Source: a virus
Reading direction: 5' to 3' (one strand)
IMG/VR virus record: IMGVR_UViG_3300030329_001906
Span: 14,430 to 41,317 of that record
DNA length: 26,888 nucleotides
In this document: positions 1 through 18,794 of the stretch, piece by piece
Layout of the letters: each line of letters opens with the position of its first letter
How positions within the stretch are numbered: position 1 is the stretch's first letter
Notes under the pieces: generated by a model
Told to the model about the DNA's origin: nothing
Seen by the model: the letters and a program-made list of their open reading frames with translations, nothing else
Database searches by the model: none
Translations under genes and position numbers: made by a program

Positions 1-3000
1 TGTGAGCTTTAACAAGATCACTAACAGATGCTTCATTAAAGTCTGCTTCTGGAATGTCTGGAGAAAGAGCAAAGCTAAACTTGCCAAGGTGTTCAAAGTC
101 CTGCAAGGCGGCATACAGCTCTGCGCCTTCGGCTGTTTCTTGAAGCGGTTCGCTATGTGGACCAGATGTAACGGCAAAAACAGAATCATCTGGTCGGCCA
201 ACACCAAATCGGTCGCTATCCATATATACGGTTGGATTTACTTCAACCGTATAGCCTCGCTTGGCCAAAGATCTATAAACCCTTGCAGCCATTTTGCTGA
301 CAATAGCATCGCTTTGTACTCGGGCACCAGTTCGGAGGCCCTCGTCAATAAGCGTTTTGTACATCTGCAAACCAACGTTTTGGCGGTGGAAATCGGCGTC
401 TAGTTCAGATGCTTTAATTGTTATTACTGGCTGTTCGTTTTGGATTTCGTGTCGAGCGTAAATTTTCCCAACAATAGATCCATCTTCGGACTTAGCTTGA
501 ACCGCAATAATTTCCTCGCCAGCCATGTCCTGCCTGTTAATGTTGTAACTAACATCTGTAGTAAGGCTGAACTTAGTACCATCTTCGCCTTCTATTTCAG
601 AACTTTGTGTAAGCGGTTCATTTAAGCGGCTAAGTCGGTCGTAAAACTCATCAGCGGTCATTGTTGGCGTAACACCTGCCATAACCGCTTCAGTGCCAGA
701 TGGAATCCCAGTTTCTCGCTCTTGTTTAAGAGTTGACAAAGCGTCAGTAACCGAGCTTGCCAAAGCATTAGATTGGGCTTTGTTTAGTGGCTTATTCTTT
801 GCCTTAGCTTCTAGGTTAGTTGCGGATTGTTCGTTTTGCTTGCTGTACTGTCTTCCAGTCCTTGACTTTTTAAGGCCCATTCTACGAGCCATTCCAGTAA
901 GTACTCGTGCCATTCCAGATGCTTCAACTGGAGCAGAAGCCACAACGTCTGGAATAAGTTCAGTTTGCTCTGCAAGAATTTCAGAAACAAGCTCTGCTGC
1001 CAAAGATGGCGTTTCTGACATTATGAGCCTGTCAGACATTTTTGCATTCTTGTTTGCTTTGTGTGCCTTTCTGTATGCAGAGTCGTATTGCAGTATCTTT
1101 TGTCTAACTGCTGCTGGTGCAATTCTTACAACATCCCGCAAAAGCCTGTTCCAAGCTGCCGGGTTTCTGACTTCAAGGTCATGAACCGCTTCGTGGAAGA
1201 ACACCTCAACAGCAGCACTACTTTCGCTTAGTTCCGCATTAATACCAATAACGCCGGGAATTGTTTCTACATGCATCCCTCTATGACCAACAGGGACGCC
1301 TCGATAAAACACAACTGTAATGCCGTGTTCTTTTCCTAGATCTGAAATGCGCTTTTGTCGATCTGTTAGCGAGTTTGTGCCGTCGTCATAAAAAGTAGAA
1401 ACTTCATCTGTGTCAACGCCAAGAACAGAGAGTGTTTTAGTGAGCTGAGTGTTAAAGCCAGCAACACCAGTTTGCACTCGTTCTGGGCTTTGATCTGGGA
1501 ACACTTCAGTTTCTTGTGGCGCTGACCAACCTTCTGCTGGCCTACCAAACAAGTCCCCTTCCCCACGGCGCTTCATGTCGAAAATTGTCCGCCATTGACT
1601 AACTGCTTCAGATACTTCAGAGTCAGATGGAGGTATTTGAGTGCGAATTGGCATCAAATGATCTGGGACATTAAACAGTTGAGCCAAAATCTCCAAAGGA
1701 ACGCCTGATTCTGCATTCATAAGAGCGTTAAGCATTTTCATTGCTTGGTCGCGCCCATATCTAGCAATAAGAAACTCAACTGTTGCCTTGGCAGCTTCTT
1801 CTTCTGTTCTAGCAAATGTTTCAGCTTCTTGATCTTGTGCGATTTCTTCTTCTAGTTCAGCATCTAGCTGTTCATCTTTTTCTTGTTGTTCAGCTTCTTG
1901 TTCTGCTCGTTCTCGCTCTTCTCTTTGTTCTGTCCCTCGAAGTTCTTCTCCTATAGCCCTTTCTTTGGCTTCTCGTTCTTCAACTCGCTTAACAAGTGAT
2001 TCTCTGAATTCTTTAACGCTTTGAGCCTGTTGTTCTGTTTGTGGAAGAGTTCCTTCGCCAATTTGTTGCCTATTGCGAAGATCTTGAATGCGCTTGATTC
2101 TTACTGCAAGAGGGAAAACGCTTGGAAGCAAGTTGGCCGCTTCTCTAGTAGACAAAGAAACGTCATTAACCAAATTGGTGTTATTTTCTTCGTTGTACTC
2201 GTTTATTGACTCGTCAATAAGGTCTCGCTCGCCAGAGCGAATAGCAATATCCCGGTCTTCTTCTCTCTGTCTGGCAACAATGCCTTCTTCTGTTTCAAAT
2301 GCTTGAAGGTTTCTTTGTTGTATTTCGGCTTCAATTTCAGGCAGTCTACGCTTAAGCGCATCTCTAAAAGAGTTTCTAGTTCTTCCGCTAACATTGGGTA
2401 CATTGACTCCTGCTTCTTCAGCAAAAGCAGTCATTGCGGATCTAGAAATAGGGCCTTCAGTTTGTGCAATCTTTTTGGCCAAAACTGGGTTGCTAGAAAT
2501 TACTCCAGAAACAGCTTTTTCAGCGGGTCCAGCAGACCAATCAGTTTCGCCAATGCGATGACCATGTGTGTGCTGTTGAACTTCTGTAAGCGAATCAGCC
2601 CACGACTCTTGCCTTGTTTCTCTTTGCGCTCGGGTTTCGCCTTCTCTGCCTGCAAGAAGATTTGCTATGGTTTCTTCTGAGATGCTGCCAGATTCAATGC
2701 CACGCCGTTGCAACTCAGCAATAGCTATAAGTGGGGTAACTCTAAATCTGCCTTCGTTTGCGCCAGCCTGAATTATTTGGCCTCGGCCCGAAGCTGGTAG
2801 CATTGAGCCAGCATAAACAAAGCCATCGAAAATTGCTTCCATCAGTTTTTCATCTGACAGTTGAGCAAGATCGCTACTTCTTTCTTCCGCTATGGCAAGC
2901 TGACGGGCTTCCATAGAAGCGAGGTTTTCTTGTTGCATACGGCTTTGCTCAACGCCGTATTCGTAAATATCAGAAGCAGTCATTCTGGAACCTAAGTCGC

Positions 3001-4456
3001 CAGTCTGAACATCATCTACTGCGCTTAGTCCGCCTCTTGTAAGTACAGCGGCTGGTCCGCCCAACAAAGCTGCTGCGGCTCCAGTTCTCCAGAGTTTGTA
3101 CAAGTATCCTTCTTGCAAAAACCCAACTTGATTAAGTCGCTCTTCATCTCCTCTAATACCAGCAATGCTGGCTATTGCTGCGTCAGTAAGAATTTGTTCA
3201 GCAACTTCTTGGAACGATTCAGACACCGATCCAACTAGATAGTTTCTAGCTGCATTAAACATCATTGATCGGGCAAGATATTCTTGCGGCTTTGACATAA
3301 ACAAAAAGCCGCCTTCAATTCTAGATGTAATTGCTGTAGATACACCGGCAGCAACTGATTCCATAAGAATGAGTCCAGATGCTTCTGCTGGAGTCATTCC
3401 TCGCTCTTTAACGTAAAGCTGGTAACTTTCGTTAAATTGATGGCCGAATGATTGGTATCCAGCATATCCAGCAAATGCCTTTGCTCTTCTTTTAGCCAAG
3501 ACCTTTGCGGCTGATTTGCCAGCGTATTTTTTGCCAACAGCAGACGCTCCCGCTTTTGCTGCTGCGCTGGTTCCCCCGGAAGCAACAGCCAAAGTAATAT
3601 CAAAGGCAAATTGCGGAGCAGATCTTAATGCGTCAATCCAAACGGCATCTGGCAATGGGCCATAGTCAATACCAGTTTTACTGTCTACATTTGCATTAGC
3701 ATTGGCCAATTCAACATGAGCAGCAACAGTTTCTGACCAGTTAAGCATCGCTTTGCTGGTTTCACTTTGCCCAAATATGCTCTCTTGAAGAGTGCCAAGC
3801 GCACCGACTGTTCCTCCAATAGGAATAGCCATATTGTAAAAGCCTTGAGTAAGAGCTACGCCAGCTTGCTCATACCAGCTTTGATCAACAGGCTTATTTT
3901 GCGGATACACATCAAGGCCAAGGGCCGCACGGCTTTCGGGATTTGCAAATGTACCCCTTAACGGTTGCCTAGATGACTCTCTCATCTGAGTTGCAACAGT
4001 TAGATAATCAGCGTCACTTAGCTTTCTTTCTTGGTAACCCTCACCTGTTTTTTCAAAAGCTCCAAATCCAGCTTCGCCAAGATGACGACGCCTAAGAGCT
4101 TCCCTTGTAACCATTTTAGAAGGCTCGATTGGCATCTCTATCTGCGGCATTGGAACTTGGCCGTCAGGAGCTTCTGTGGGGTATTGTGCCGTTTGCCAAT
4201 CTCTTAGCTTTGTTTGATAGTCCTCAAATTGATATTGGTATTCAGGATCTTCAACCAGCTCGCCCATTCTTTCAGCACCGCCAATAAGACCTTCTCTTCT
4301 GGCTCGTGCTTCAGCGTCTTTTCTGGCTCTTAGATCTTGAGCGCCTACGTCTACAGGTTCTGGTAGCTGGGTAAGTGCGCCGTCTTTGTCAGAAAACGTT
4401 TGATTAATCAGTTCGTCAAGTGAGGAGCGATTGTTAAAGTTAGTCATATTTTTCAT
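1..4456 (-). CDS. Giant polyvalent-type virion protein with HEAVH zincin-like motif and GNAT-like domain (partial, 3' end outside window)
   Basis: The frame is open from ATG 4456 (or in-frame ATG 4447) to the left edge, at least 1485 residues, and continues outside. Residues 1-200 are polar. Three Gly/Ala-rich hydrophobic stretches (about 275-335, 360-385, 455-475) could interact with membranes. A Glu/Gln/Arg-rich coiled coil follows (about 815-890). At about 1088-1092 is HEAVH in the context VFFHEAVHDLEV, the HExxH signature of zincin metallopeptidases. Residues about 1315-1420 resemble a GNAT acetyltransferase, with FHRQNVGLQMYKTLIDEG for the acetyl-CoA loop and helix and a later YRSLAKRGY. 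This order is known from phage polyvalent proteins thought to be ejected with DNA. It lies 5 bp after the other giant gene at the end of the structural block, where podoviruses place internal virion proteins. Peptidase and acetylase activity are inferred from motifs only. Confidence 0.8.
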   Translation of the reverse strand, partial: MKNMTNFNNRSSLDELINQTFSDKDGALTQLPEPVDVGAQDLRARKDAEARARREGLIGGAERMGELVEDPEYQYQFEDYQTKLRDWQTAQYPTEAPDGQVPMPQIEMPIEPSKMVTREALRRRHLGEAGFGAFEKTGEGYQERKLSDADYLTVATQMRESSRQPLRGTFANPESRAALGLDVYPQNKPVDQSWYEQAGVALTQGFYNMAIPIGGTVGALGTLQESIFGQSETSKAMLNWSETVAAHVELANANANVDSKTGIDYGPLPDAVWIDALRSAPQFAFDITLAVASGGTSAAAKAGASAVGKKYAGKSAAKVLAKRRAKAFAGYAGYQSFGHQFNESYQLYVKERGMTPAEASGLILMESVAAGVSTAITSRIEGGFLFMSKPQEYLARSMMFNAARNYLVGSVSESFQEVAEQILTDAAIASIAGIRGDEERLNQVGFLQEGYLYKLWRTGAAAALLGGPAAVLTRGGLSAVDDVQTGDLGSRMTASDIYEYGVEQSRMQQENLASMEARQLAIAEERSSDLAQLSDEKLMEAIFDGFVYAGSMLPASGRGQIIQAGANEGRFRVTPLIAIAELQRRGIESGSISEETIANLLAGREGETRAQRETRQESWADSLTEVQQHTHGHRIGETDWSAGPAEKAVSGVISSNPVLAKKIAQTEGPISRSAMTAFAEEAGVNVPNVSGRTRNSFRDALKRRLPEIEAEIQQRNLQAFETEEGIVARQREEDRDIAIRSGERDLIDESINEYNEENNTNLVNDVSLSTREAANLLPSVFPLAVRIKRIQDLRNRQQIGEGTLPQTEQQAQSVKEFRESLVKRVEEREAKERAIGEELRGTEQREERERAEQEAEQQEKDEQLDAELEEEIAQDQEAETFARTEEEAAKATVEFLIARYGRDQAMKMLNALMNAESGVPLEILAQLFNVPDHLMPIRTQIPPSDSEVSEAVSQWRTIFDMKRRGEGDLFGRPAEGWSAPQETEVFPDQSPERVQTGVAGFNTQLTKTLSVLGVDTDEVSTFYDDGTNSLTDRQKRISDLGKEHGITVVFYRGVPVGHRGMHVETIPGVIGINAELSESSAAVEVFFHEAVHDLEVRNPAAWNRLLRDVVRIAPAAVRQKILQYDSAYRKAHKANKNAKMSDRLIMSETPSLAAELVSEILAEQTELIPDVVASAPVEASGMARVLTGMARRMGLKKSRTGRQYSKQNEQSATNLEAKAKNKPLNKAQSNALASSVTDALSTLKQERETGIPSGTEAVMAGVTPTMTADEFYDRLSRLNEPLTQSSEIEGEDGTKFSLTTDVSYNINRQDMAGEEIIAVQAKSEDGSIVGKIYARHEIQNEQPVITIKASELDADFHRQNVGLQMYKTLIDEGLRTGARVQSDAIVSKMAARVYRSLAKRGYTVEVNPTVYMDSDRFGVGRPDDSVFAVTSGPHSEPLQETAEGAELYAALQDFEHLGKFSFALSPDIPEADFNEASVSDLVKAH

Positions 4457-4461
4457 CCGGC

Positions 4462-7400
4462 TTATCTAGCCGGGTATCCCAAAACATCTGATTTGGATTC
4501 CCATCCGAGCCTGCGAACCATTTGTTCGGCAGCAGATCTACCTTCGGATATGGTTTTGTAAAATCCGTGTGGCGCAGAACGAGTCAATACTTTCATAACA
4601 TTCACAACTGCTTCGTTGTACTCAGGGCTTCCTTTAGCTACTGAGGGTCCATAGCGGGTGCCAATGTTACCCATAGCTTCCCTAAGCTCTTCAGAGCTTA
4701 GTCTTACTTCCTGCCGCCTACCGTCTAACGTAATTATAAACGGTGTATCTAGCGCAACGCTTGGAATGTCTGAAGGGGACTGGGCTACTGGCACATAATC
4801 GCCAGTTCCCATACGAAACGCTTGCAGTGGCCGAGGTCTAAAGTTTTTATTAGGAGTACTACTAAGAGTGAGCGTGTCTTGTCCAAGATTGTCAAAACTA
4901 TGAGTGTAGTTTTCTCGCAATGCTCGCGAAGCAGCTTCTTGGCCCACCCGCCCCGGTTCCATTTCGTCAAGAGCCTGTTGTTGAATCATTGCTTCTTGAC
5001 GACGATTTTCAATTTGATGAGAAATTTCTTCCTTAAGCCATTCCTTTTTAAATACATCTTCTGATGGCTGGTATTCTCTCATACGCCAGTTAAGAGATGC
5101 AGCGGCGTTGCCAAGTTCTCTTTGTTCTGGAGTACTGTCTTTGTCGTTTCTCTTAGAAAGAGCTATTTGAGCTTCAGAAGAATTAAGATCTACACCCCAC
5201 TGCTCTTTAAATAAATCCCTCAAAGCGCGGATGTTTCGGTCTTTAAGGTTTTCAAAAACATTAATAGCACGAAGCATAGACTCGCCATCTTTACCCAAAA
5301 GTGATTCTTCTGGGTGAATTGGGCGGTCTAAAGTTGAAGTAGATTCAGTGACGCCAAAGGATTCAATTAGAGATCGTGTTTCTTCGTCGCCTTGCATCAA
5401 TTGCGCTTTTGCCCACTCTGCAAATATTGCTGGGTTTGGCGAGCCAGTAGTGCCCTGCTGATTGTTAAACATGTCAACAAGTTGCTTGTATGCATTTTGA
5501 ACATTACTAAATTCTTCTGCGTCTGTAAGGTAGCCAGAAACATCTTGCCAAATCTCGTCAAGGTTTTCTATGTTCCCAATATCTCTGATGTATTCATCTC
5601 TAAGAGCATCTTCATCAAACCCAGCCATACCGGGTTGGTTATTAGATTTGGCTGAAGCTCCTGATGCACTCTCGGTGAGTTTGTACATGTTTTTGATGTC
5701 ATTCAAATTTCCACCAAGAACATGTGGGATATTCATTGCTTCAGCGAGACTTTGATGTTCTTCGGATCGCACAACAGCAAGAGGGACAAGAGACCCCGGA
5801 TGCAACATTCCTTCAAAAACTGTCCCGTCTGGTGCTGTCAAAGTAAGTCCAGCGGACCCATCTGGCCTTACTCCCCTACGCATACCAACTGTGTACGGAA
5901 GATCTGGGTATGTCTGTTCAAGCTGACTGCGAATTTGAGAAATCTGCTGTGGCTCAAATCCCCTGCCAACAAACCCTTCTTCCGAAGGTTGAGAAACGCT
6001 AGACAAGTCTTGAGTAATAGCGTCAATTTCTTCAGGTGTAACCTTGCCGTCGTTTTGAAGCGCCCGTTTCAAAGCCTCCCGAGCGGTTTTTAGTTGCCCA
6101 TGTTCCATAACCGCCTGTTTCAGTGCCATGGCCGGACTTACTGTATTTCCGAAAGCATCATCTCTGCCTTTTTGAATCAGTTCCTGAGTGCGTTTCCATA
6201 TAAAATCGGCTGTTTGTGATTCATCAACTTGTTGGCTTCTTGTTTGCGCTTTGAATATATTTTGCTGCTGTCCCAAAACTCTTTGGGCAAGATTCCCGTA
6301 TCGAGATTGTACTTGTTGCCTCGCCTGCTTATAAGCATTCGCTCCAGCTTTACCGGGGCCATGTTGAGAGCGATCAAGAGCCTCCATAGCTTTACTGGCG
6401 TCCATATATTCTTTAAAGACTACGCCGGTCATGCCAGAGTCAATCGCGTTTTGAGCAAGTGTGTCAATAGATGACTTGTAGCCCGAATCAATTGAAGCGG
6501 CTTCTCCAATTATGGCAGGGTTTTGTGTTGGATCAAAAGACGGGACATATTCACCAGTATTGGGATTTTGAACAAGACTAATATTTGCGGTTCTGCCACT
6601 TCCGTAAGGATCTTGAATGGTGTAAGAAGCGTGACCACCAGAGCCTACTGTTGGTGAACTAATACTTGTGCCTGCTTGCGGTTGACCCGGTGCTTGTGGC
6701 TGCCCCGGTTGTGCTGGGGCTTGCGGTTGCCCCGGTTGTGCTGGTGCTTGTGGTTGCCCCGGTTGTGCTGGTGCTTGTGGTTGCCCCGGTTGTGCTGGTG
6801 CTTGTGGTTGTCCGGATGGTCCCTTGTAGTACCATTTCCCATCTTTCCACACCAAATTCTTTGGGATACTAGAACCCGGCTGTTGCGGCTGCCCCGGTTG
6901 TGCTGGCAATCCTCCTGTTGGCTGGCCCGGTTGTGCTGGGGCTTGCGGTTGTCCCGGTTGTGCTGGGGCTTGCGGCTGCCCCGGTTGTGCTGGGGCTTGC
7001 GGCTGCCCCGGTTGTGCTGGGGCTTGCGGCTGTGGGGGTTGTGCTGGGGCTTGCGGCTGTGGGGGTGGCGGCTCACCTCTACGTTCAGCGCGTTGCGCGT
7101 CCCGCTGCCATTTTCTCATCTTAATTTCGTACTGTTTTTGAGCGCCTCGTGCTTCTCTTTCTGCGCGGTTTTTTTCTATTTGTTCACGTTCTCTTTGTGG
7201 TCGAGTACGCTCTTTTTCCCTTTGCCCTTCCCAAAATGCTTTTTCGTCTTCTCGTCTTTTCTCAACCCTGCCCCTATATATGCCAGATTCTTTTTTGAAC
7301 TGCTCTAGCTCACGCTCATTCATTGGCCGATCCATGGCCATGCCACGGCGCTCTTCTTCTCCCGCTGCGACATCAGCCATATCCGCAGCCCTAGCTTCTT

Positions 7401-8523
7401 CTACAGTCATGCCGGGGCGAGGAGTTTCTCCGGCTGCCTGTGTAGCCTTTAAAATTTGCCGGGGTTCATAACCAAGAGCTACGGCCAGTTCACCAATTGG
7501 CATTGTGTCTGCGTTGCGAATGCCTCTTGCTTTACCAGAACCACGCAAAGAATTTATAATTGACTCTGAGTGCCTTCCACTTCCGAGTTTGGTTTGTGGG
7601 TCGAAATCCCACTCATATATATTATATACGTTTCCCCCTATTGTCTGGCCGCCCCATTTTCGTTCATATTCCAGCTCTGCTTGTTCTTCTTCTGTTAAAG
7701 AAGTTTTTTCTTCTAGCTGTTGGCGGCGCGGTGAGAACTGGTCGAGTCTCCGTTTTGCCTTATCCACTAATGCTTGGCCTTGTTCCTCCGTAAGCTCACC
7801 GCTTTCTACTCGATCCAATATACGGTTTTCGCGATCAATAAAAATATCCCATTCATGATCTTCAATATCTTCCAAGCTGCGACCTTGCCCAATTCCGGGG
7901 TCTGGCAACGGTGCAGTAATAGCATCTCTCTCTGCTTGCCATTCTTCGTGCATACGTCGGCTTATTTCCGCTCGATCAGCGGGTGGCCCTACAAGTTCTT
8001 GTTGTTGGTTTTGCCCCGTTTGCCTTATTTGAGCTAATTCCTGCTCATACGCTTCTTGTTGCTGTTGGCGACCAGCATCATATTCGGCTAGCCTATCTTT
8101 AATGCCTCTTTCTTCTTCTTGAAGCTCTTGCTTCCAACCTTGCGCATTATCAAAAGCAGTTTGTCGTTTTTGTGCTGCAAGTTGTTCTGGATTTAAGCCA
8201 CCAGTTCGTCGGTCCCGTTCTGCTTGATCTAGCGAATCTAGCAATCCAACTACATCTGACCCCCACTTAACTCCGGGAATGATGTTCGTCCAATTGCCTT
8301 GGTTTGTCGTTGGCCAGATGCCTTCGAGGTAGCCATAAGCCGGATTTAGAACAGGGTTCCCCAATGCGCCTATAGAAGTTGACGCCATGTCTCCAATAAA
8401 GCCGCCAGTAGTTTCTAAAACCCTGTTAAATGCATGGGGCTGCTCTTGAGGTGGTTCTGGCAAAGCAACCTGTTGAATTGAAGGATCTTCTGTAATTGGA
8501 AACTGTTTTTCTTGTTTTGCCAT
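4462..8523 (-). CDS. Giant virion-associated protein with Pro/Gln repeat tract (probable internal or ejected protein)
   Basis: This 1353-residue protein has no catalytic motif I recognise. The N-terminal 100 residues contain Gly-rich, mildly hydrophobic stretches (GGFIGDMASTSIGALGNPV). Residues about 100-480 are highly charged and predicted largely helical or coiled coil (many E, R, Q). Residues about 483-615 hold two blocks of a nine-residue PGQPQAPAQ repeat, split by a short insert containing WKDGKWYYKG. The remaining 740 residues are mixed helical and polar. There is no signal peptide. It starts 10 bp after the 474-aa structural gene and ends 5 bp before the polyvalent gene, so the two giants are probably co-translated and may act together inside the virion or during DNA entry. 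A fibre protein is a less likely alternative because no receptor-binding or trimerisation domain is evident. Confidence 0.75.
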   Translation of the reverse strand: MAKQEKQFPITEDPSIQQVALPEPPQEQPHAFNRVLETTGGFIGDMASTSIGALGNPVLNPAYGYLEGIWPTTNQGNWTNIIPGVKWGSDVVGLLDSLDQAERDRRTGGLNPEQLAAQKRQTAFDNAQGWKQELQEEERGIKDRLAEYDAGRQQQQEAYEQELAQIRQTGQNQQQELVGPPADRAEISRRMHEEWQAERDAITAPLPDPGIGQGRSLEDIEDHEWDIFIDRENRILDRVESGELTEEQGQALVDKAKRRLDQFSPRRQQLEEKTSLTEEEQAELEYERKWGGQTIGGNVYNIYEWDFDPQTKLGSGRHSESIINSLRGSGKARGIRNADTMPIGELAVALGYEPRQILKATQAAGETPRPGMTVEEARAADMADVAAGEEERRGMAMDRPMNERELEQFKKESGIYRGRVEKRREDEKAFWEGQREKERTRPQREREQIEKNRAEREARGAQKQYEIKMRKWQRDAQRAERRGEPPPPQPQAPAQPPQPQAPAQPGQPQAPAQPGQPQAPAQPGQPQAPAQPGQPTGGLPAQPGQPQQPGSSIPKNLVWKDGKWYYKGPSGQPQAPAQPGQPQAPAQPGQPQAPAQPGQPQAPAQPGQPQAPGQPQAGTSISSPTVGSGGHASYTIQDPYGSGRTANISLVQNPNTGEYVPSFDPTQNPAIIGEAASIDSGYKSSIDTLAQNAIDSGMTGVVFKEYMDASKAMEALDRSQHGPGKAGANAYKQARQQVQSRYGNLAQRVLGQQQNIFKAQTRSQQVDESQTADFIWKRTQELIQKGRDDAFGNTVSPAMALKQAVMEHGQLKTAREALKRALQNDGKVTPEEIDAITQDLSSVSQPSEEGFVGRGFEPQQISQIRSQLEQTYPDLPYTVGMRRGVRPDGSAGLTLTAPDGTVFEGMLHPGSLVPLAVVRSEEHQSLAEAMNIPHVLGGNLNDIKNMYKLTESASGASAKSNNQPGMAGFDEDALRDEYIRDIGNIENLDEIWQDVSGYLTDAEEFSNVQNAYKQLVDMFNNQQGTTGSPNPAIFAEWAKAQLMQGDEETRSLIESFGVTESTSTLDRPIHPEESLLGKDGESMLRAINVFENLKDRNIRALRDLFKEQWGVDLNSSEAQIALSKRNDKDSTPEQRELGNAAASLNWRMREYQPSEDVFKKEWLKEEISHQIENRRQEAMIQQQALDEMEPGRVGQEAASRALRENYTHSFDNLGQDTLTLSSTPNKNFRPRPLQAFRMGTGDYVPVAQSPSDIPSVALDTPFIITLDGRRQEVRLSSEELREAMGNIGTRYGPSVAKGSPEYNEAVVNVMKVLTRSAPHGFYKTISEGRSAAEQMVRRLGWESKSDVLGYPAR
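6670..7066 (-). repeat. 27-bp coding tandem repeat (PGQPQAPAQ) in two blocks
   Basis: A 27-bp unit encoding nine residues, PGQPQAPAQ, is repeated in two blocks of about four to five copies each inside the 1353-aa gene. Copies are nearly identical in DNA, with a few synonymous differences (for example ggggcttgcggc versus ggtgcttgtggt), so the array expanded recently. The blocks are separated by about 100 bp encoding a non-repetitive insert that includes WKDGKWYYKG. The tract would form an extended, proline-rich flexible linker or spacer. The long open frames on the other strand and in other frames here are by-products of the repeat. Confidence 0.9.
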
Positions 8524-8533
8524 AACTATTCAA

Positions 8534-9958
8534 TCAAGCAATGAGTGAGTCTGCAATTTCTGGAGATGTATGTGACGGCAGATTTAAGTTCATCGATGAA
8601 ATGCCAAGCAATTGATCGAACATCATCTGCATTTCATTGCCCGGTGGAGTTGCACTATGAGCAAAAGTCGAAGTAAAAGTGTCTTTAGTTCTAAAGTCAG
8701 TATTTCCTCGCACAATGATTATTCCGGGGCCTCCGGCATAATGCTGCACGATTTCAGCCATTACAAGTTCGTCAATAATCAACGATTTAGTATTAGCAAT
8801 TGCAGTGGTACATTCGATTGAGAAGAGTGGGTCGCTTGGGATTTCAGTTTCACTAAAATTCCATGTTTGATTAACATGGACCCACGAAGTTCCGATTGAA
8901 CTCAAATCTACGGTTTTCGTTGCCGCTGAAACTTTTGATCCAGATGAAGAGCTTTGAATATTAAATTCCAAAGCTCCAGATCCGATTGTGCCGCTGCCTG
9001 CTGCTATTCGTATGCGACATGAAATAATGTAGTTCTTACCACCTCGAACTGATGCTGGTGTACCAGTTGCAGTTTTAAGTTTTTGAGTCAGCTTGTGTTG
9101 GAAAGATCCATTGCCGTTTAGTTGTAGGTTTCCAGAGCTTTCTGAATTCCATATATATGCAGCAGTTGTGTTTTTCTCTTGCTTGGTTCCTGAGTGCGAG
9201 CCACTTCCGTTATCTACCCATCTGCTTGGTAGGGTGGAGGATGCCCATGATTGAAAATCACTATTTACAAGAGCGTTTTCACCCGGTGCGGGTGTAGTTG
9301 TCCTTGAGGTGCCAAGTGCTTTAGCGGATGTAACCCTAATCGTTTTGTTAAGTCCACTTCCTGCTGGCCAATCAGCGTCAAAACTACTAACAGCTTCTTT
9401 GCCAGTTATACGAAACTGTTCTTTCCCTAGCACTGATCCGCCTGAATGGTCTTGTTCACATTCAAGATTCAACACTTCATGTCGTGTTGTTTGCCATGAG
9501 GTTTCTGTTGTATTGTGGGTTCTCGGTTGAGCGTTGTTAATAATTACAGTGCCGGTGCCAGTGTTGCTTCCACCAGCGGCAATTGTTCCAACGCCACCAA
9601 CTGCGTATGAAGCGGATTCTACCCTTTTTGTGTTAGCTACCATGTCAATGATTAGCATTTCCATGGCATCCTGAAAGCCTTTTGGCTCTTTACTTAGTCC
9701 GTCACGAACTGTTTCAACAATAATATTTCTAGCCATACCAGCCAAGGCTTGCTGCATACTCTGCATTGGAGCATCAAATGTTTTTATTTGTGCTGGCAGG
9801 CTTCCAAGTTGATACATGTCCGTTACAGTAAATTCATCCAAAACATCTTCGATTTCGGTTCTAAGGTCGTCTTGAAAAGTATTCATTAGTTTGCGGACAT
9901 AGAACAACTTTCCCAACCTTGTAAACAACCCATTTGTGCCTGTGTAAGTAATAGCCAT
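8534..9958 (-). CDS. Virion structural protein with carbohydrate-binding-module-like domain
   Basis: The protein has 474 residues. The N-terminus (MAITYTGTNGLFTRLGKLFYVRK and the following 110 residues, mostly helical) resembles a widespread phage structural protein opening. Residues about 225-405 look like a beta-sandwich carbohydrate-binding module of the CBM4/9 type: 'ALVNSDFQSW', then 'LPSRWVDNGSGSHSG', a long Ser/Gly/Thr-rich beta region and 'KSLIIDELVMAEI'. Such modules occur in phage tail or surface proteins and could bind a host glycan. The start ATG is preceded by AGGA at 7-nt spacing, directly after the TAA of the 104-aa gene. The family match is from memory of the N-terminal pattern. 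The exact virion position is unknown. Confidence 0.7.
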   Translation of the reverse strand: MAITYTGTNGLFTRLGKLFYVRKLMNTFQDDLRTEIEDVLDEFTVTDMYQLGSLPAQIKTFDAPMQSMQQALAGMARNIIVETVRDGLSKEPKGFQDAMEMLIIDMVANTKRVESASYAVGGVGTIAAGGSNTGTGTVIINNAQPRTHNTTETSWQTTRHEVLNLECEQDHSGGSVLGKEQFRITGKEAVSSFDADWPAGSGLNKTIRVTSAKALGTSRTTTPAPGENALVNSDFQSWASSTLPSRWVDNGSGSHSGTKQEKNTTAAYIWNSESSGNLQLNGNGSFQHKLTQKLKTATGTPASVRGGKNYIISCRIRIAAGSGTIGSGALEFNIQSSSSGSKVSAATKTVDLSSIGTSWVHVNQTWNFSETEIPSDPLFSIECTTAIANTKSLIIDELVMAEIVQHYAGGPGIIIVRGNTDFRTKDTFTSTFAHSATPPGNEMQMMFDQLLGISSMNLNLPSHTSPEIADSLIA

Positions 9959-9959
9959 A

Positions 9960-10274
9960 TTAGTGTCCTAAAACCGTTAAAGTAATCGCGCTATTTGAAG
10001 CCGCTTCTGCCTCAAGCCGGTATTTCCCTTTGCCAAAACTAATGGCGTTTTGTAAATCGAACTTACTTGTTGAGTTAGCAGCTACTTCCACAATCCAAAT
10101 AAGGTGATCTGTTATTGTTGAGCTTTCGTTTTCGTTTGGCACGGCGTAAACTTTGGTAATTACAGCAGAACCGCTGTAGTTGCTGGCAAGAATCTCTCGA
10201 ACAGAGCCTCCTAAACCAATATCAGCTACCTCTCTGGTCGTTATTAAGGGGGCTTGGTAGCTAATATGCGCCAT
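9960..10274 (-). CDS. Small beta-rich virion protein (decoration or connector-like)
   Basis: The protein has 104 residues with alternating hydrophobic and polar residues suggesting a compact beta-sandwich (SGSAVITKVYAVPNENES, HLIWIVEVAANSTSKFDL, KYRLEAEAASNSAITLTVLGH). It has no signal peptide, transmembrane segment or catalytic motif. The 'LLWIVEA/HLIWIVEV' strand also occurs near the end of the 107-aa protein at 13962-14285, which hints at a shared fold. The ATG overlaps the stop of the cysteine-rich 106-aa gene (TAATG), so the two are translationally coupled. Head decoration, tail or fibre-attachment roles are all possible. Confidence 0.65.
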   Translation of the reverse strand: MAHISYQAPLITTREVADIGLGGSVREILASNYSGSAVITKVYAVPNENESSTITDHLIWIVEVAANSTSKFDLQNAISFGKGKYRLEAEAASNSAITLTVLGH

Positions 10275-10594
10275 TACTTATTACCCTTTTCTCCGCAGGT
10301 CGGGCACTCTGGCTCTGGCCCATGACCTTTGTATGGGAATGCTTTATTCAACATCTGTTGTCTTTTCTTGCATCCACCACAAGGCTTTATGCCGACCGCA
10401 GATGTAACCTTTGCAATTGTGTCGCCTACTCCACGAGAGGCTTTATTTTTATTGAAATCGTCATTTTCGGGGTGTTTCTGGTCTTTTGGTTGAAATTTAC
10501 TACATGTTGCACATTCATGCGCACTAGGGGTTCCACCAAATAGACCCAATGAACACTTGTAATCTGACGATTGATGCTTACATACGATTGTCAC
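10274..10594 (-). CDS. Cysteine-rich small protein with GDTIAKVTSAVGIKPCGGCKKRQ motif
   Basis: The protein has 106 residues and 10 cysteines. N-terminal part: C5, C14 and a CATC pair. C-terminal part: VGDTIAKVTSAVGIKP, then CGGCKKRQQMLNKAFPYKG, then CPTCG. The stretch 'GDTxxKVTxxxGIKPCGGCxxRxxxLNxxFP' is, from memory, a recurrent motif in small phage proteins of unknown function, possibly metal- or peptide-binding. The CxxC pairs suggest Zn or Fe-S ligation, or disulfides. The GTG start at 10594 has an AGGAG site 6 nt upstream, and the stop overlaps the next ATG. It lies between structural genes, so it may be a virion component or assembly factor. Confidence 0.65.
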   Translation of the reverse strand: MTIVCKHQSSDYKCSLGLFGGTPSAHECATCSKFQPKDQKHPENDDFNKNKASRGVGDTIAKVTSAVGIKPCGGCKKRQQMLNKAFPYKGHGPEPECPTCGEKGNK

Positions 10595-10603
10595 CAGCCG
10601 CTC

Positions 10604-12352
10604 CTACCAAGAAAAAGTAATAGTGTTGTTTACCTCGCCTTTTTTGGGAGTACATCCACTTTGATAAACGTAAGCACCCGGAGTAATTCCACCGGGTGGA
10701 TTAATTGGTATAGGTTGATTTCCTCCACAGTTGGGACAACCGGTAATAGGTGGCCCCGGTATGGGCGCATAAGGTATGCACCCAGAAAATCCTTTTGATT
10801 CAGTTGGCCCCGTAAATGCGCTAGGGCCCCATACGTTGCAACAATCTACAACAGCAGTTTTCCACGGCCCTATTTTTAACGCAAGAGTTTTACCTGTTGA
10901 GTTACTAGAACTCACATTGCCATCTAATACCCCTGATATGCCAGTACTAAGAATTGGACTTAATGCACTGCTTGGGGCTCCGGGCCCACAACTTTGTAAA
11001 TACTGAACGGCTTCTCCATAAGTAGTACTTGCGGCATCAGCAATGCTTTGTGCCCAATTAAACTTACCAGTAGCAGAACCAGAGTTACATGGATGTGATC
11101 CGGGAATAGGAGGGAAACCCCAAGATATGGAGTCTAGACCGTTATGTTCAGGGTTGGCTTGTTCATAGTTTGGTGTGAATGTTACGCCACCAGAAACTTC
11201 ACCAACACTACAAGAGTCGCCATTAAAGCTAATAACGGCGGTCCAAACGCCTTGGATGGCTACTGTGCCCCCAGTGTTGCCGCATGAATAACTCTCTAAA
11301 AGAGAGAAGGTTGTCCCGCCAAAACTGCAAGTTGGATCTGGGCAATTTCCTATATTAGGTATCCCGCTATTGCATCGGTGCCCAAATTCCAATTCAGGCA
11401 CTCTTAATGTCCCTTCTATTCTGTACTCGCCCGTTTCTTCGTCGCATGGGATAGTCACTGATTCACTAAACGATATTCCCGTATGCTTTACCCCATATCC
11501 ACTACAGCCTCTTGGGTATGCGTTAGGACATTGCAACATACTTAGTCGATAGGGAGCGGGAGCGGTCCCGCCAGCAGCGTTATAATCTATGTAATCAGTT
11601 AGAAACCAACCGCGATCACAACAAGTTTGATCTATAACGCTGCAATTTGGAATACTAACACTTGGCGCTGTGCCAATCGTTCCTCCGTTTCCGGGAGCAG
11701 TAGGAAGTGCACCAGCTCCCGGGCATTGATCATTTCCAGCACACATTACATGTGTTAAATAGCGGCCAAAACTACAATCCGGCGTAATTGCGCCCGCGCA
11801 TCCCCCGGGATCTGTTGCTGGATCACAAAATTGCCATTCAAAAGTTCTAGAACCAAAACACTCTAATTGTGTGTCTTCGTTATCAAGGCAGTTTCCTTGG
11901 GAACCGCAAGCACAACCACTAAGTTCAATGTAACTAGCTTCAACGTTTATACTAAAGGTGATTGCGTTTTTTGGTAGCTCTGGGCAACATTCGTCCCAAA
12001 GACATTCATCACCTCCGGGCGGCTCAACTTCGTCACAGCAAGGCTGGCATCCTTCTGGAAAAGGAAGGCTTCCCGGCCACTCTTTATCTTTAGGATCACA
12101 ATCGCCGTCACACGTTAGCTCGTAGCAAAGTCCATTAAGTAAATGAACTTCCCATTGGCAAGGGTTTACCCACCCTTTTTCTTCCCAATCACAATCTGGG
12201 TCACTGGGATCACACGGAGGACATATGCAATAATAAATCGGGTCGCTTGGGTTTTCTGGGTCAGGCTCTAAGCAGGAACAAAGTTGCAATTTGCCCCTTA
12301 CGCAAAGCTCTCCATCACAGCAACATGCACCACCTCTTTGTCCGCCCGACAT
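10604..12352 (-). CDS. Very cysteine-rich virion-region protein (about 48 Cys in 582 residues)
   Basis: I do not recognise the family. The protein has about 48 cysteines (8%), with 20 in the first 120 residues in clusters such as CCC, CSC, CIC-PP-C, CQPCC and DECC, with many Pro, Gly and Asp. The C-terminal 450 residues have spaced cysteines in a Ser/Thr/Gly-rich, probably beta-rich background (for example NCPDPTCSFGGTTF, TGCPNCGGNQ). There is no signal peptide, transmembrane segment or enzyme motif. The pattern is that of a disulfide-stabilised extracellular protein, or one with many metal sites, which is unusual for a phage. It sits between the 210-aa (8 Cys) and 106-aa (10 Cys) genes. A surface, adhesion or capsid-stabilising role is inference from context. 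Confidence 0.7.
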   Translation of the reverse strand: MSGGQRGGACCCDGELCVRGKLQLCSCLEPDPENPSDPIYYCICPPCDPSDPDCDWEEKGWVNPCQWEVHLLNGLCYELTCDGDCDPKDKEWPGSLPFPEGCQPCCDEVEPPGGDECLWDECCPELPKNAITFSINVEASYIELSGCACGSQGNCLDNEDTQLECFGSRTFEWQFCDPATDPGGCAGAITPDCSFGRYLTHVMCAGNDQCPGAGALPTAPGNGGTIGTAPSVSIPNCSVIDQTCCDRGWFLTDYIDYNAAGGTAPAPYRLSMLQCPNAYPRGCSGYGVKHTGISFSESVTIPCDEETGEYRIEGTLRVPELEFGHRCNSGIPNIGNCPDPTCSFGGTTFSLLESYSCGNTGGTVAIQGVWTAVISFNGDSCSVGEVSGGVTFTPNYEQANPEHNGLDSISWGFPPIPGSHPCNSGSATGKFNWAQSIADAASTTYGEAVQYLQSCGPGAPSSALSPILSTGISGVLDGNVSSSNSTGKTLALKIGPWKTAVVDCCNVWGPSAFTGPTESKGFSGCIPYAPIPGPPITGCPNCGGNQPIPINPPGGITPGAYVYQSGCTPKKGEVNNTITFSW

Positions 12353-12375
12353 TCCTTACTAATCCTTTGTAATTA

Positions 12376-13008
12376 TTAGGGGTCAATGTCTTTTCTGCAA
12401 AATACACAATACGCAGGTGGCACAGAAAAGTAGTACATAGCTGTGCCAGCCTGAATGCTTGTATTCTCGATAACGATGTTTTCTTCTGGAAAGAATTCGA
12501 CCATAAGGACTATGGTGGGAACTCTTTGGCCACCACCAATTGGATATGCAGCCCACTGAAGGTCTTCATCTATTTCGCCTTGGACGCCGAGACACCAGTC
12601 GCCGGTTCCGGGAGGAACATAAAAGGTACTGCTTTGTTCTGGGCAGCAAGTTCCTGCATGATCCTTAGTGCATAGCTTGTATTCCATTAAATTGGTAGCT
12701 AAACCCTCTCTTCCTCCTCCCTCTTCGCCCTCCTTTTCAAAAATTGAAGTGTGATCCCAAAAGTTTTTAATCTCGTCAAACCGGTACATAAATGGTTTGC
12801 CGCAATCTATTGTGCCGCCTTCATAACGAGAAACAACTGAGGCAGGGAATACGTTAATGGCGTTTGACCCACCTTGTGAATCATGTATGCCATATTGAAG
12901 AAGTGGCTTTAATTGCTCTAGCTGGTTTACTGAACGCGCAATATCTTCTACCCAGTATTTATATTCCCGGCTAAATGGGTTTGGATTTGGGGCTCGATCG
13001 TATGGCAT
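12376..13008 (-). CDS. Unknown virion-region protein with C-terminal cysteine motifs
   Basis: The protein has 210 residues. The N-terminus is polar and helical (REYKYWVEDIARSVNQLEQLKPLLQYGI), followed by a mixed beta region. It has 8 cysteines, including CC and a C-terminal YCVFCRKD pair. There is no signal peptide or transmembrane segment. A GGAG ribosome binding site lies 9 nt before the ATG. It lies between the 309-aa beta-rich protein and the 582-aa cysteine-rich protein in the same direction, so it belongs to the structural block. I do not recognise a family. The shared cysteine richness with the next two genes suggests they may interact or face the same oxidising environment. Confidence 0.65.
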   Translation of the reverse strand: MPYDRAPNPNPFSREYKYWVEDIARSVNQLEQLKPLLQYGIHDSQGGSNAINVFPASVVSRYEGGTIDCGKPFMYRFDEIKNFWDHTSIFEKEGEEGGGREGLATNLMEYKLCTKDHAGTCCPEQSSTFYVPPGTGDWCLGVQGEIDEDLQWAAYPIGGGQRVPTIVLMVEFFPEENIVIENTSIQAGTAMYYFSVPPAYCVFCRKDIDP

Positions 13009-13025
13009 TTTGTTATTCTCCCCAC

Positions 13026-13955
13026 TTATGGAGTTGGAACGCAGTCACTGCCACTGTATGCCCACCCCGGAACCCCTAACTCGCATAAACTTGCCCATTC
13101 CGCTTTCTCATCAACGCTTGGGTAGCAGGGCTGAACCATCCATTGCCCTCCTATTCGTTCCACACAATCTTCTTGAAATCCATCCGCTCTACCAGTTAAT
13201 TCGTAGTGGCCTTTATATCTGTATGTGTTTACCCCGTCAGAAATAAGGCCCCCATACTCATCCATAGTAATTCCATCGAACCTAATTGTCCCCGCAGCGA
13301 ACGCTGGGTTGCCTGCAAGCAGTTGCACAGCAGTGCTATTAACACCACTTAAATAGAGAAGCGGACCATCGACATCTGGCGGGTCAACGCTTGTAAATGG
13401 AATGCGAATTCTTATTTGCTGCACTGTAGTTAGATACGAATACTTCATCGTATCAGCGCGAGAGTTTAAGCCTGCTGGCAACATGTCAATGTAATTAGTG
13501 CCGCCACCGTACGGCGACTTAGAAGTTATAAACTTTCTTTTTGAAGCTATCTCTGTCCTCATACTTAAGGTTTGCGGAATATTAGCTCCACCCCCGCTAG
13601 CTCCCGGAGTAGTGAAATATTCCGCAGTAACCAAAAATCTTTGATCCCCAAGTGTGGCGATATTAATTGTTTGAAGAGGCAAATCTCTTCGGTCTGGGTG
13701 AACAATGGCGTAGCTGCTATTGTTGTCCAGAGCATCATCATAATCAAAATCACCGGTAATACGAGGCCCTAATGCAGTAGTGCAAGCAGTTGAGCATCCC
13801 GCGTCATTGGCAGTTAATTCGGCGATAATATCTGTTCTAGATGTAGACGTACTCTTGATTATGAGTTTACGAGTAGCTCTAAATCTAGAGTAATCAAATT
13901 GGCTACTGGTATAGCTTGTACCAATAACGTCACTTTGAATTACTGTAAGTGCCAT
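13026..13955 (-). CDS. Virion-region protein, N-terminal half paralogous to the adjacent 107-aa protein
   Basis: The protein has 309 residues. Residues 1-110 match the neighbouring 107-aa protein in order: VIGTSYTSSQFDYSRFRATR against IAGSSYTGYFGEAKDYRKER, then RTDIIAELTA against KTQILEDVAA, then LPLQTINIATLGDQ and LVTAEYF against IPLQEMSIQRVGRS and WIVEAVYY. The second half (SYLTTVQQIRIRIPFTSV through FDGITMDEYGGLISDG) is beta-rich and ends with three cysteines spaced along the C-terminus. No enzyme motif, signal peptide or transmembrane segment is visible. No clear ribosome binding site precedes the ATG, which is AT-rich upstream, so translation may depend on the gene before it. A tail or connector role is plausible. 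Confidence 0.65.
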   Translation of the reverse strand: MALTVIQSDVIGTSYTSSQFDYSRFRATRKLIIKSTSTSRTDIIAELTANDAGCSTACTTALGPRITGDFDYDDALDNNSSYAIVHPDRRDLPLQTINIATLGDQRFLVTAEYFTTPGASGGGANIPQTLSMRTEIASKRKFITSKSPYGGGTNYIDMLPAGLNSRADTMKYSYLTTVQQIRIRIPFTSVDPPDVDGPLLYLSGVNSTAVQLLAGNPAFAAGTIRFDGITMDEYGGLISDGVNTYRYKGHYELTGRADGFQEDCVERIGGQWMVQPCYPSVDEKAEWASLCELGVPGWAYSGSDCVPTP

Positions 13956-13961
13956 AATTAA

Positions 13962-14285
13962 TTAAAACGGGTAATAATACACCGCCTCCACAATCCACAG
14001 CAACGCGCCTTCGTCTGTGCTGCTTCTGCCAACTCTCTGTATGCTCATTTCTTGTAACGGAATATGGCCATTCGTATAAACAGCTTCCACCGGGTATAGC
14101 TTGTTGTTATCGCTATCATCAATTAACGCGGCCACATCTTCAAGTATTTGAGTTTTGCCTTTTCTGTCATTGCCATTCACAAGAAAACGACGAACTGCTC
14201 GCTCTTTGCGATAGTCTTTAGCTTCACCGAAATAACCGGTATAGCTGGACCCAGCAATGTCATATGAAATAATTTCAGCCGCCAT
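13962..14285 (-). CDS. Small virion protein, paralogue of the N-terminal domain of the 309-aa protein
   Basis: The protein has 107 residues and mixed alpha/beta character: AGSSYTGYFGEAKDYRKERAV, then a basic stretch, KTQILEDVAALIDD, and C-terminal strands HIPLQEMSIQRVGRS and ALLWIVEAVYYYPF. It aligns along nearly its whole length with the first 110 residues of the next gene, so the pair arose by duplication. The ATG overlaps the stop of the 45-residue gene (TAATG). There is no signal peptide or catalytic motif. Small paired proteins of this type in structural blocks are often connector, stopper or decoration subunits, but here the role is unassigned. Confidence 0.65.
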   Translation of the reverse strand: MAAEIISYDIAGSSYTGYFGEAKDYRKERAVRRFLVNGNDRKGKTQILEDVAALIDDSDNNKLYPVEAVYTNGHIPLQEMSIQRVGRSSTDEGALLWIVEAVYYYPF

Positions 14286-14422
14286 TACCCATCCAGTGTC
14301 CTATTTAAAACAGAAGCAATTTCAACTACCTCTGCTTGTATTTGTTTCAAAATTTGCCCTAGCTCGGACAATTTTTCTTCCATCTTAGACGTATCTATTT
14401 CTTTTCCTTCTTCTTCAATCAT
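14285..14422 (-). CDS. 45-residue coiled-coil peptide
   Basis: This short gene fills the gap between the 107-aa and 186-aa genes. The peptide starts MIEEEGKEIDTSKMEEKL and continues with heptad-spaced hydrophobics (LSELGQILKQIQAEVVEIAS), a likely coiled coil, then VLNRTLDG. It starts at ATG 14422, 10 bp after the 186-aa stop, and ends in a TAATG overlap with the next ATG, the same junction used elsewhere in this operon. Length, frame continuity and coupling support a real gene. The function is unknown: a small assembly, scaffold or oligomerisation subunit is possible. Confidence 0.6.
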   Translation of the reverse strand: MIEEEGKEIDTSKMEEKLSELGQILKQIQAEVVEIASVLNRTLDG

Positions 14423-14431
14423 CTATGTTTC

Positions 14432-15244: not shown

Positions 15245-16336
15245 CTAGCTAGGGAATCGAGTCCCGCTTCTGTTTGTGTAGTAGATATCACTACGGTCAG
15301 TTTTGCGCCCATATGAATCAATCCGCTCTGATCGATCCACGTTGACGCCGAAGTATTCAACTTTGAAGTTTGCTCGGTCTTCCATGATTGCCGTTCGGAT
15401 CTGGCTTTCATAGATTTGCTGGAACTTGGCGTTGTTTGTGTTGTCCGCGTAGTTCTCAGCTAGACCTAGTGCGCCATTGATAATGATCGCCTCATACTTT
15501 TGTGGGATCAAATCATCAAGGCTTGTTTCGGCTATGTTCGTGTCTTTGGTGTACCTGTACCTGAGCGTATATGCCTTGTCTGGTAGCGGGTAGAACAAGA
15601 ACCTACTCAGGGCTTCGTCCCATGCGACGTACTCAGGGGCACCAGATGTGATTGTCTTTGCCGCATAAAGATCACGCAATGCGCCAAGGTTAATCACTTG
15701 CACGTTGGGGTATCCGCTATTGAAATCGTGGGTCATGTACCCATCGACAGCACCAAAGTTTGCTGCGCCTGCGACCATAGCGTTATAGAGCGTGAAAGAC
15801 ACTCCAGAGCCAGCTTCTGCGACGGTAATGGAAGTGTCGTGAAGATTAGCTCTGAACTTATCTGTGCCTTGGTATGAAAAACTACTAGGAATGTGGTAGC
15901 CGTCAGCAGCGCCGAGGCCACTAATTTCAACTATCGCAGCAACTTGATCTGCGCCAGCAGACCCATCGCCACTTCCATCATGCGTGAATACCCATTGTGG
16001 AAAGTTGGCAATTGTTTCAAGCCCGAAATTAACCACCCCAGCGGTAACCTGTGGGCAAATTTCTCCGCCAGTATCGTCGTTAAGTTTGTTTCCAGCCGCA
16101 GAGGTATGCGAAAATGTCTCTGGGTCATTTAGAGTAATAGTGCCTGTGCTGCTCAACCATGACCACTTGTGAGATGCTTGCTCACCTTGAAGAGCTGGCG
16201 GAACCACAAACTGTTGCACTGCCCGGTGCGCGATGTTTTCTAAAAAACTTCCAGCACTATGAGGGGCGCTGGTGTTGTACCCGTATCCAAGGAAGTAGGC
16301 CACTTCGCTTTCAATTGTTGCCAGACTTACTGCCAT
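15245..16336 (-). CDS. Head-tail adaptor (connector)-like protein
   Basis: The protein has 363 residues. Its N-terminus (TIESEVAYFLGYG, ENIAHRAVQQFVVPPAL, ASHKWSWLSSTGTITL) resembles the helical adaptor proteins that join portal to tail in many marine phages: a short 'xxxFLG' helix, a helix ending in 'QFxxPP', then 'HxWSxL'. The middle is beta-rich. The C-terminus (YRYTKDTNIAETSLDDLIP, YEAIIINGALGLAENY) is helical, as in such adaptors, with an extended tail rich in arginine, serine and tyrosine. Its ATG overlaps the stop of the HNH-like gene (TAATG) with an AAAGG-type site upstream. The portal gene would be expected further upstream but is not in this window. Confidence 0.65.
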   Translation of the reverse strand: MAVSLATIESEVAYFLGYGYNTSAPHSAGSFLENIAHRAVQQFVVPPALQGEQASHKWSWLSSTGTITLNDPETFSHTSAAGNKLNDDTGGEICPQVTAGVVNFGLETIANFPQWVFTHDGSGDGSAGADQVAAIVEISGLGAADGYHIPSSFSYQGTDKFRANLHDTSITVAEAGSGVSFTLYNAMVAGAANFGAVDGYMTHDFNSGYPNVQVINLGALRDLYAAKTITSGAPEYVAWDEALSRFLFYPLPDKAYTLRYRYTKDTNIAETSLDDLIPQKYEAIIINGALGLAENYADNTNNAKFQQIYESQIRTAIMEDRANFKVEYFGVNVDRSERIDSYGRKTDRSDIYYTNRSGTRFPS

Positions 16337-18191: not shown

Positions 18192-18794
18192 TTAATTCCA
18201 GTTAGCTAAGAGTATGGTTAAATCGTCGGAATTGACAACATTGTCCCCATTAAGATCAGACTGCTCGTTTTCTGTACCCCAATTACTAAGGAGAATTGCA
18301 AGGTCTTGTCCATCAATAACGCCGTCGTCATTGATGTCCCCATCCTTTGCATCGACATAAACGCGGAAATCCCACACATATGAATAATGGTCAGGCCCAA
18401 GTATTGATTCCCCCATGTACACAATGACTTCATCTTGGCCAACACAAATATCAAGCGGCCTGCTGTGATATTTGTGAGAGTAATCAACCAAGGTGTATTC
18501 ACCGTTAGGAAGAGCTACCTTCATTCTGTATTCCGCGTACTGTGTAGCAAAAACATTACTATGGCCTATGGTTGCCATTCCGGTACTAAAAAAGACATCG
18601 CTTGTTGTTTCCCGGTTGTCACGAGATTGTACAAAAACAAAACGATCTCGTCCACCCAAGAGCCCCATTGTGTAAGTGATGCCATCTATGGTCTGTTGTT
18701 CTTCATCAATATCTGGAAGCACTTGATTAGGGCAATCGTTAGCCCCAAGACTTGCTGTGGCGAGCAATAGAAGTTTGAGTATGGTGTAATGCAT
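18192..18794 (-). CDS. Secreted protein with C-terminal dockerin-type calcium-binding repeats
   Basis: The protein has 200 residues. Residues 1-18 (MHYTILKLLLLATASLGA) look like a Sec signal peptide. Residues about 25-145 form an unrecognised, probably beta-rich domain (RDRFVFVQSRDNRETTSDVF, YAEYRMKVALPNGEYTLVDY). Residues about 150-200 hold two dockerin-type calcium loops with helices, DINDDGVIDGQDLAILLSNWG and DLNGDNVVNSDDLTILLANWN. This doublet is typical of secreted planctomycete proteins. Dockerins bind cohesins or cell-surface scaffolds, so the phage may place this protein on the host envelope. The ATG is supported by a GAGGA-like site. The gene is probably acquired from a host. Its purpose (surface anchoring, receptor masking, or virion attachment) is inference. 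Confidence 0.8.
   Translation of the reverse strand: MHYTILKLLLLATASLGANDCPNQVLPDIDEEQQTIDGITYTMGLLGGRDRFVFVQSRDNRETTSDVFFSTGMATIGHSNVFATQYAEYRMKVALPNGEYTLVDYSHKYHSRPLDICVGQDEVIVYMGESILGPDHYSYVWDFRVYVDAKDGDINDDGVIDGQDLAILLSNWGTENEQSDLNGDNVVNSDDLTILLANWN

Follow-up and report, generated by a model that had tools for sequence, protein, structure and literature searches.

Polyvalent proteins are very large single polypeptides of phages with a portal–terminase module, in which zincin metallopeptidase (MPTase) domains, GNAT domains, and uncharacterised regions are combined and swapped, and their MPTases fall into 12 clades (Iyer et al., 2017, PMC5512222). Giants of this type are also known from cultured phages. 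Those of Klebsiella phage vB_KpnP_ZX1 and Pseudoalteromonas phage Y7, podoviruses of 58–61 kb, have a C-terminus homologous to that of the protein described here, and the ZX1 giant also contains, like our protein, a GNAT-like segment (RNSGTG, FYKRFGF) beside a zincin-like motif (HELFH). The combination of zincin, GNAT, and this C-terminus is therefore already known in cultured podoviruses, albeit in another order: the zincin precedes two GNAT domains in our protein, whereas the order is reversed in ZX1. Burkholderia phage JC1 encodes gp69, a DarB-like giant late protein of 4,515 residues with a zincin-like HEAFH motif; mass spectrometry of purified virions identified 51 unique peptides of it (PMC9144972), and the C-terminus of gp69 has no detectable homology to the family described here.

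The gene product that we analysed is a divergent, previously undescribed member of this described class of giant phage proteins. It shares with the polyvalent proteins the very large single polypeptide, the phage context with portal and terminase, the association of a zincin MPTase and GNAT domains with uncharacterised regions, and the swapping of modules, but it differs from them in that it belongs to a Planctomycetota-linked clade, has a divergent zincin, and contains no Pfam domain at threshold (Iyer et al., 2017, PMC5512222).

The giant gene and the assembly gap

The window, by which we mean the whole analysed stretch of 26,888 nucleotides, comprises positions 14430–41317 of a 41,317-base virus record and directly follows a run of 10 Ns (record positions 14420–14429). 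On its minus strand, an open reading frame at 2–4456 encodes 1,485 residues from the ATG and is open at the window edge. As the window begins right after the 10-N run and the frame continues beyond it (remainder at record 8989–14429), only the N-terminal 45% of the gene is visible in the window. The total length is 3,298 residues, counted across an assembly gap between the two GNAT domains whose 10 Ns may not equal the real gap length. The assignment of both gap flanks to one gene is supported by sequence comparison, as a relative of 2,674 residues (L103) has regions of both in one unbroken frame. The earlier note on this DNA had asked for the downstream remainder of the gene. The motifs that it named are present and correctly located: HEAVH begins at residue 1088, FHRQNVGLQMYKTLIDEG begins at 1356, and YRSLAKRGY begins at 1394.

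The N-terminal region (residues 1–480; 3017–4456, minus strand) consists of Ala/Gly-rich, weakly hydrophobic stretches and is common to close relatives (34% in L103). A highly charged linker, helical or coiled-coil-like as judged from its sequence, follows at residues 805–890 (1787–2044, minus). No curated Pfam domain was found above threshold in the window fragment of the giant; the sole match, to Acetyltransf_1 at residues 1319–1382, had an E-value of 0.081. A sequence search of cultured phages with query P0001 or with the zincin region gave no match.

A conserved zinc site in a zincin-like domain

Residues 1015–1215 (812–1414, minus) form a zincin-like metallopeptidase domain according to alignment, an AlphaFold model, and matches in BFVD. 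We aligned the HExxH regions of 13 giants, which are 11–47% identical to the window sequence, and found only five invariant columns: H1088, E1089, H1092, P1114, and E1148. The HEAVH motif (residues 1088–1092; 1181–1195, minus) is thus an invariant HExxH, in which H1088 and H1092 correspond to the two histidine ligands and E1089 to the catalytic glutamate, and E1148 (1013–1015, minus), located in a later helix, is the invariant candidate for the third zinc ligand. Its placement agrees with the published position of the third ligand in polyvalent MPTases (PMC5512222). The HExxH motif is not a chance occurrence, as it is found at the homologous position in 13 aligned giants together with the conserved downstream glutamate.

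The AlphaFold model of the domain, calculated from six sequences, reached a pLDDT of 73 and a pTM of 0.58. Its order of elements is zincin-like: one helix is followed by three strands, then by the HExxH helix and further helices, and the HExxH helix and the later helix with the glutamate ligand are rightly placed. The best seven BFVD matches of the model were all phage proteins (E-values 2e-4 to 9e-3), five of them annotated as large polyvalent protein associated domain-containing proteins, one as an LT_GEWL protein, and one as uncharacterised. In a comparison with solved structures in the PDB, this moderate model found no match. Among PDB sequence-profile matches, we regard those of the myoglobin type as chance, and those to Spartan and ADAM8 at the HExxH were weak. 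None of the aligned domains matched a curated metallopeptidase family above the cut-off, and the domain of the window itself matched none at all; other members of the alignment matched SprT-like, DUF6782, and DUF1570 families weakly. Since the ligand residues are invariant while the moderate model lacks a solved counterpart, conservation gives good support to the zinc site, and the zincin fold has moderate support. The earlier note's proposal of a zincin with a third ligand thus holds for the zinc site, with E1148 conserved in sequence, and is less firm for the fold.

The domain is apparently a gluzincin-like metallopeptidase with H1088, E1089, H1092, and E1148 as its key residues. That precisely the residues for zinc binding and catalysis are invariant, even in very divergent homologues, argues for a peptidase that is predicted to be active. 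The same invariance, in a domain whose remainder diverges to 11% identity, would also be expected of an effector that cleaves a host defence or regulatory protein after ejection, with the GNAT domains acetylating host proteins, and host targeting is among three options given for such domains by Iyer et al. (2017, PMC5512222). Against such an effector, the peptidase is embedded in the middle of the protein, and no counterpart was detected in close relatives, for example L105. Taking this together with the GNAT2 distribution described below, we consider a host-directed role of the peptidase possible, with clearly less than an even chance.

Two GNAT domains of unequal quality

The first GNAT-fold domain (GNAT1) spans residues 1297–1440 (137–568, minus). 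A model of residues 1270–1485, based on two sequences, was of moderate quality (pLDDT 64, pTM 0.65), and Foldseek matched it to NatD, AAC(2')-Ia, and other GNATs, with 11 matches at E<=0.001 and a best E-value of 2.8e-4 at a probability of 1.0. The GNAT fold that had been suspected in the earlier note is thus recovered by modelling, but the acetyl-CoA loop, HRQNVG at residues 1357–1362, is degenerate. Asn replaces the expected first Gly of the consensus Q/R-x-x-G-x-G/A, and catalysis by GNAT1 is doubtful because of this departure. In the single relative with a GNAT1 domain, the loop reads NKGIG, and a scan of viral contigs with GNAT1 returned one contig and nothing further.

The second domain, GNAT2 (residues 1490–1616), lies just outside the window and has a near-canonical loop, KVKGAG. 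Its matches comprise phrog_2563 (3e-11), Streptomyces phage acetyltransferases, and, in three Microbacterium phages (Barnstormer, UtzChips, and Caron), the C-terminal part of the minor capsid protein, with about 34–42% identity to these phage proteins, and its profile matches the solved GNAT 2qec with an E-value of 0.0099. GNAT2 is therefore homologous to annotated acetyltransferases as well as to a solved GNAT, and it is better supported than GNAT1. The idea of acetylation in the earlier note would suit GNAT2 better than GNAT1, as far as the sequences indicate. The relatives of GNAT2 are C-terminal domains of a capsid protein or solo proteins, whereas here the domain is found inside a giant beside a second GNAT fold; that the domain also occurs at the C-terminus of a minor capsid protein and, by itself, in small phage proteins is a further point for the host-directed role discussed above.

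Relatives and the exchange of modules

Scans of viral contigs yielded 28 related loci with the major capsid protein (MCP) as query, 65 with the terminase, and 17 with the C-terminus of the giant, the last on contigs that partly overlap with the MCP and terminase sets. In the checked loci holding both genes, the giant frame adjoins the MCP and lies on the strand opposite to terminase, portal, and MCP. Full-length relatives comprise 2,651–4,377 residues. The C-terminal region of about 850 residues is common to nearly all examined relatives and is the most conserved part, and the N-terminal region is common to the close relatives. The content between these ends varies. L103 has the zincin and lacks GNAT1, GNAT2, and the region 1698–2170; L108 has GNAT1 and the region 1698–2170 and lacks GNAT2; and in L105, the second N-terminal block is directly followed by the C-terminal one, and no zincin could be detected. 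A relative of 4,377 residues (L101:2113–15243, minus) has a strawberry-notch helicase between the conserved ends (Pfam, 1.9e-21 and 1.6e-15), and the relative at L099 carries a DUF7178 domain. A BLAST impression that L103 and L108 share GNAT1 did not hold: in the alignment, the same linkers enclose a different module. By sequence comparison, the predicted enzyme modules between the conserved ends are exchanged across the family.

An uncharacterised module is present at residues 1698–2170 (L002:12126–13800, minus), which only L108 shares (48% identity). It contains a conserved GIDIKVISF...DVLxMDRVQI pattern, and a comparison with the PDB gave no match. An assignment of residues 2040–2100 (LPFGIGIDIKVISF...MDR) to the HhH DNA glycosylases was unsupported by a profile search against the PDB.

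The preponderance of conservation in the C-terminal part, together with a large neighbouring frame that keeps the same place, the degenerate GNAT1 loop, and the sheer length of the full-length giants, would agree with a mainly structural ejection protein, i.e. an internal core or channel component like T7 gp16, in which the enzymatic folds are vestigial or serve as scaffolding. However, it is exactly the zinc-binding and catalytic residues that are invariant in very divergent homologues, and the modules are swapped, not decayed. We therefore regard a mainly structural protein as unlikely.

A boundary motif

At the module boundaries we noticed the motif [RK]FS[LFV]. The giant contains four copies (residues 1295, 1459, 1689, and 2346), each at a module boundary, in comparison to 0.27 expected, an enrichment that was observed post hoc. 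The first copy is KFSL at residues 1295–1298 (563–574, minus), and KFSF at residues 1459–1462 (71–82, minus) marks the boundary of GNAT1 and GNAT2. L108 has equivalent FS[LV] sites at three matching module boundaries. The motif may be a cleavage site or a mere shuffling linker. As it is absent from more distant relatives that retain the zincin, it is no general signal for cleavage, and we rejected a family-wide function of [RK]FS in cleavage. A de novo motif search in the other giants returned low-complexity linkers and nothing else. It is quite improbable, in our estimation, that the giant is an injected self-processing polyprotein whose zincin cuts at these four sites; if it were, the cuts would free two GNATs, the uncharacterised module at 1698–2170, and the C-terminal delivery part.

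Homology of the C-terminus to known giants

The NCBIfam model NF032893 (tail-700, PLxRFG) matches residues 2929–3100 with an E-value of 4.8e-13, and 8 of 15 members of the family match it; the score of 48.5 bits is below the curated cut-off of 100, and only profile positions 311–489 are covered. The PLxRFG motif is absent from our giant, the nearest sequence being PLRNNN at residue 2480. A C-terminal profile of the family matched the extreme C-termini of the giants of phages Y7 (8e-19) and ZX1 (1.5e-13), and the homology with PLxRFG giants is collinear. At the level of sequence, the C-terminus is distantly homologous to the C-termini of the PLxRFG/DarB-like giants of podoviruses.

With C-terminal homologues annotated as DarB-like in phages Y7, Pavtok, and PEp14, and a strawberry-notch helicase domain in the L101 relative, it could be argued that the giant, like P1 DarA/DarB, shields the DNA from restriction on entry. 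However, searches of the protein of the window itself revealed neither a helicase nor a methylase domain, and the DarB-like label is an annotation, which makes an anti-restriction function rather doubtful.

The virus and its likely host

Terminase, portal, and capsid genes form a late-gene context, with the terminase large subunit (TerL) and the MCP assigned by PHROGs and the portal, which lacks a PHROG match, by position and size. An SU10-type adaptor, the adaptor of short-tailed phages, is encoded at 15245–16336 (minus) and supports a short tail and a podovirus-like architecture. Directly upstream of the giant gene and in the same run, a frame of 1,353 residues at 4462–8523 (minus) contains Pro/Gln-rich repeats (QPQAPAQPG), and a large, mostly non-homologous frame fills its place in relatives. 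A protein of 582 residues (10604–12352, minus), very rich in Cys, Gly, and Pro and without a family match, is possibly a surface or adhesin protein.

A protein with a signal-peptide-like start, encoded at 18192–18794 (minus), contains a dockerin type I repeat (Pfam E-value 2.4e-5), and similar repeats were found at seven related loci (L105, L013, L030, L011, L048, L029, and L025). Dockerins are unusual in phages, and this one hints at an attachment to the host surface or to cellulosome-like partners. A search of a genome collection with the C-terminus of the giant found a single match, a contig of the metagenome-assembled genome (MAG) Planctomycetes bacterium GWF2_42_9. Because of the dockerin gene and this one match, the host is likely a member of the Planctomycetota, in agreement with the poorly studied host expected in the earlier note. 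The contig (L109, MHYA01000142.1) encodes a 1,332-residue relative of the giant's C-terminus and recombinase-like frames; homologues of TerL, portal, and MCP were not found within the 21 kb fetched, and the contig is possibly a distant prophage.

Proposed mechanism

Zincin and GNAT folds within one frame of 3,298 residues represent at least two unrelated enzymatic domains. Together with the BFVD matches, the PLxRFG/DarB-like C-terminus, the late-gene context, and the swapped domains, they support the assignment as a polyvalent-type phage protein, a class that the earlier note identified correctly from sequence alone.

On balance, we think it probable, with considerable room for the alternatives discussed above, that the giant is packaged and co-ejected, that its zincin processes it, and that GNAT2 acts on a host target. 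The two conserved terminal regions would keep the giant in the virion and deliver it along with the DNA, and between these ends it would carry exchangeable modules, namely the metallopeptidase, GNAT1 with its degenerate loop, and GNAT2 with its near-canonical loop. By analogy to the proteins analysed by Iyer et al. (2017, PMC5512222), the peptidase may cut the giant itself, either upon packaging or entry or afterwards, whereby the modules would be freed. Early in infection, GNAT2 could then modify a protein of the host or a component of its defence. We infer injection, cleavage, and acetylation: a giant that is packaged, co-ejected, and processed by its zincin would follow precedents in the class, and the action of GNAT2 on a host target is presumed. 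For the peptidase, self-processing is at least as likely as host targeting. Processing cannot be universal in the family, however, since some relatives, among them L105, L012, L017, and L101, yielded no zincin.

In summary, a specialist in polyvalent proteins would find our result unsurprising. In the aligned homologues, the catalytic residues are conserved and the modules sharply delimited, which makes the question of self-processing or host targeting directly testable. Our analysis extends the giant polyvalent proteins to phages of the short-tailed type, which probably infect Planctomycetota, hosts whose phages have been little studied.
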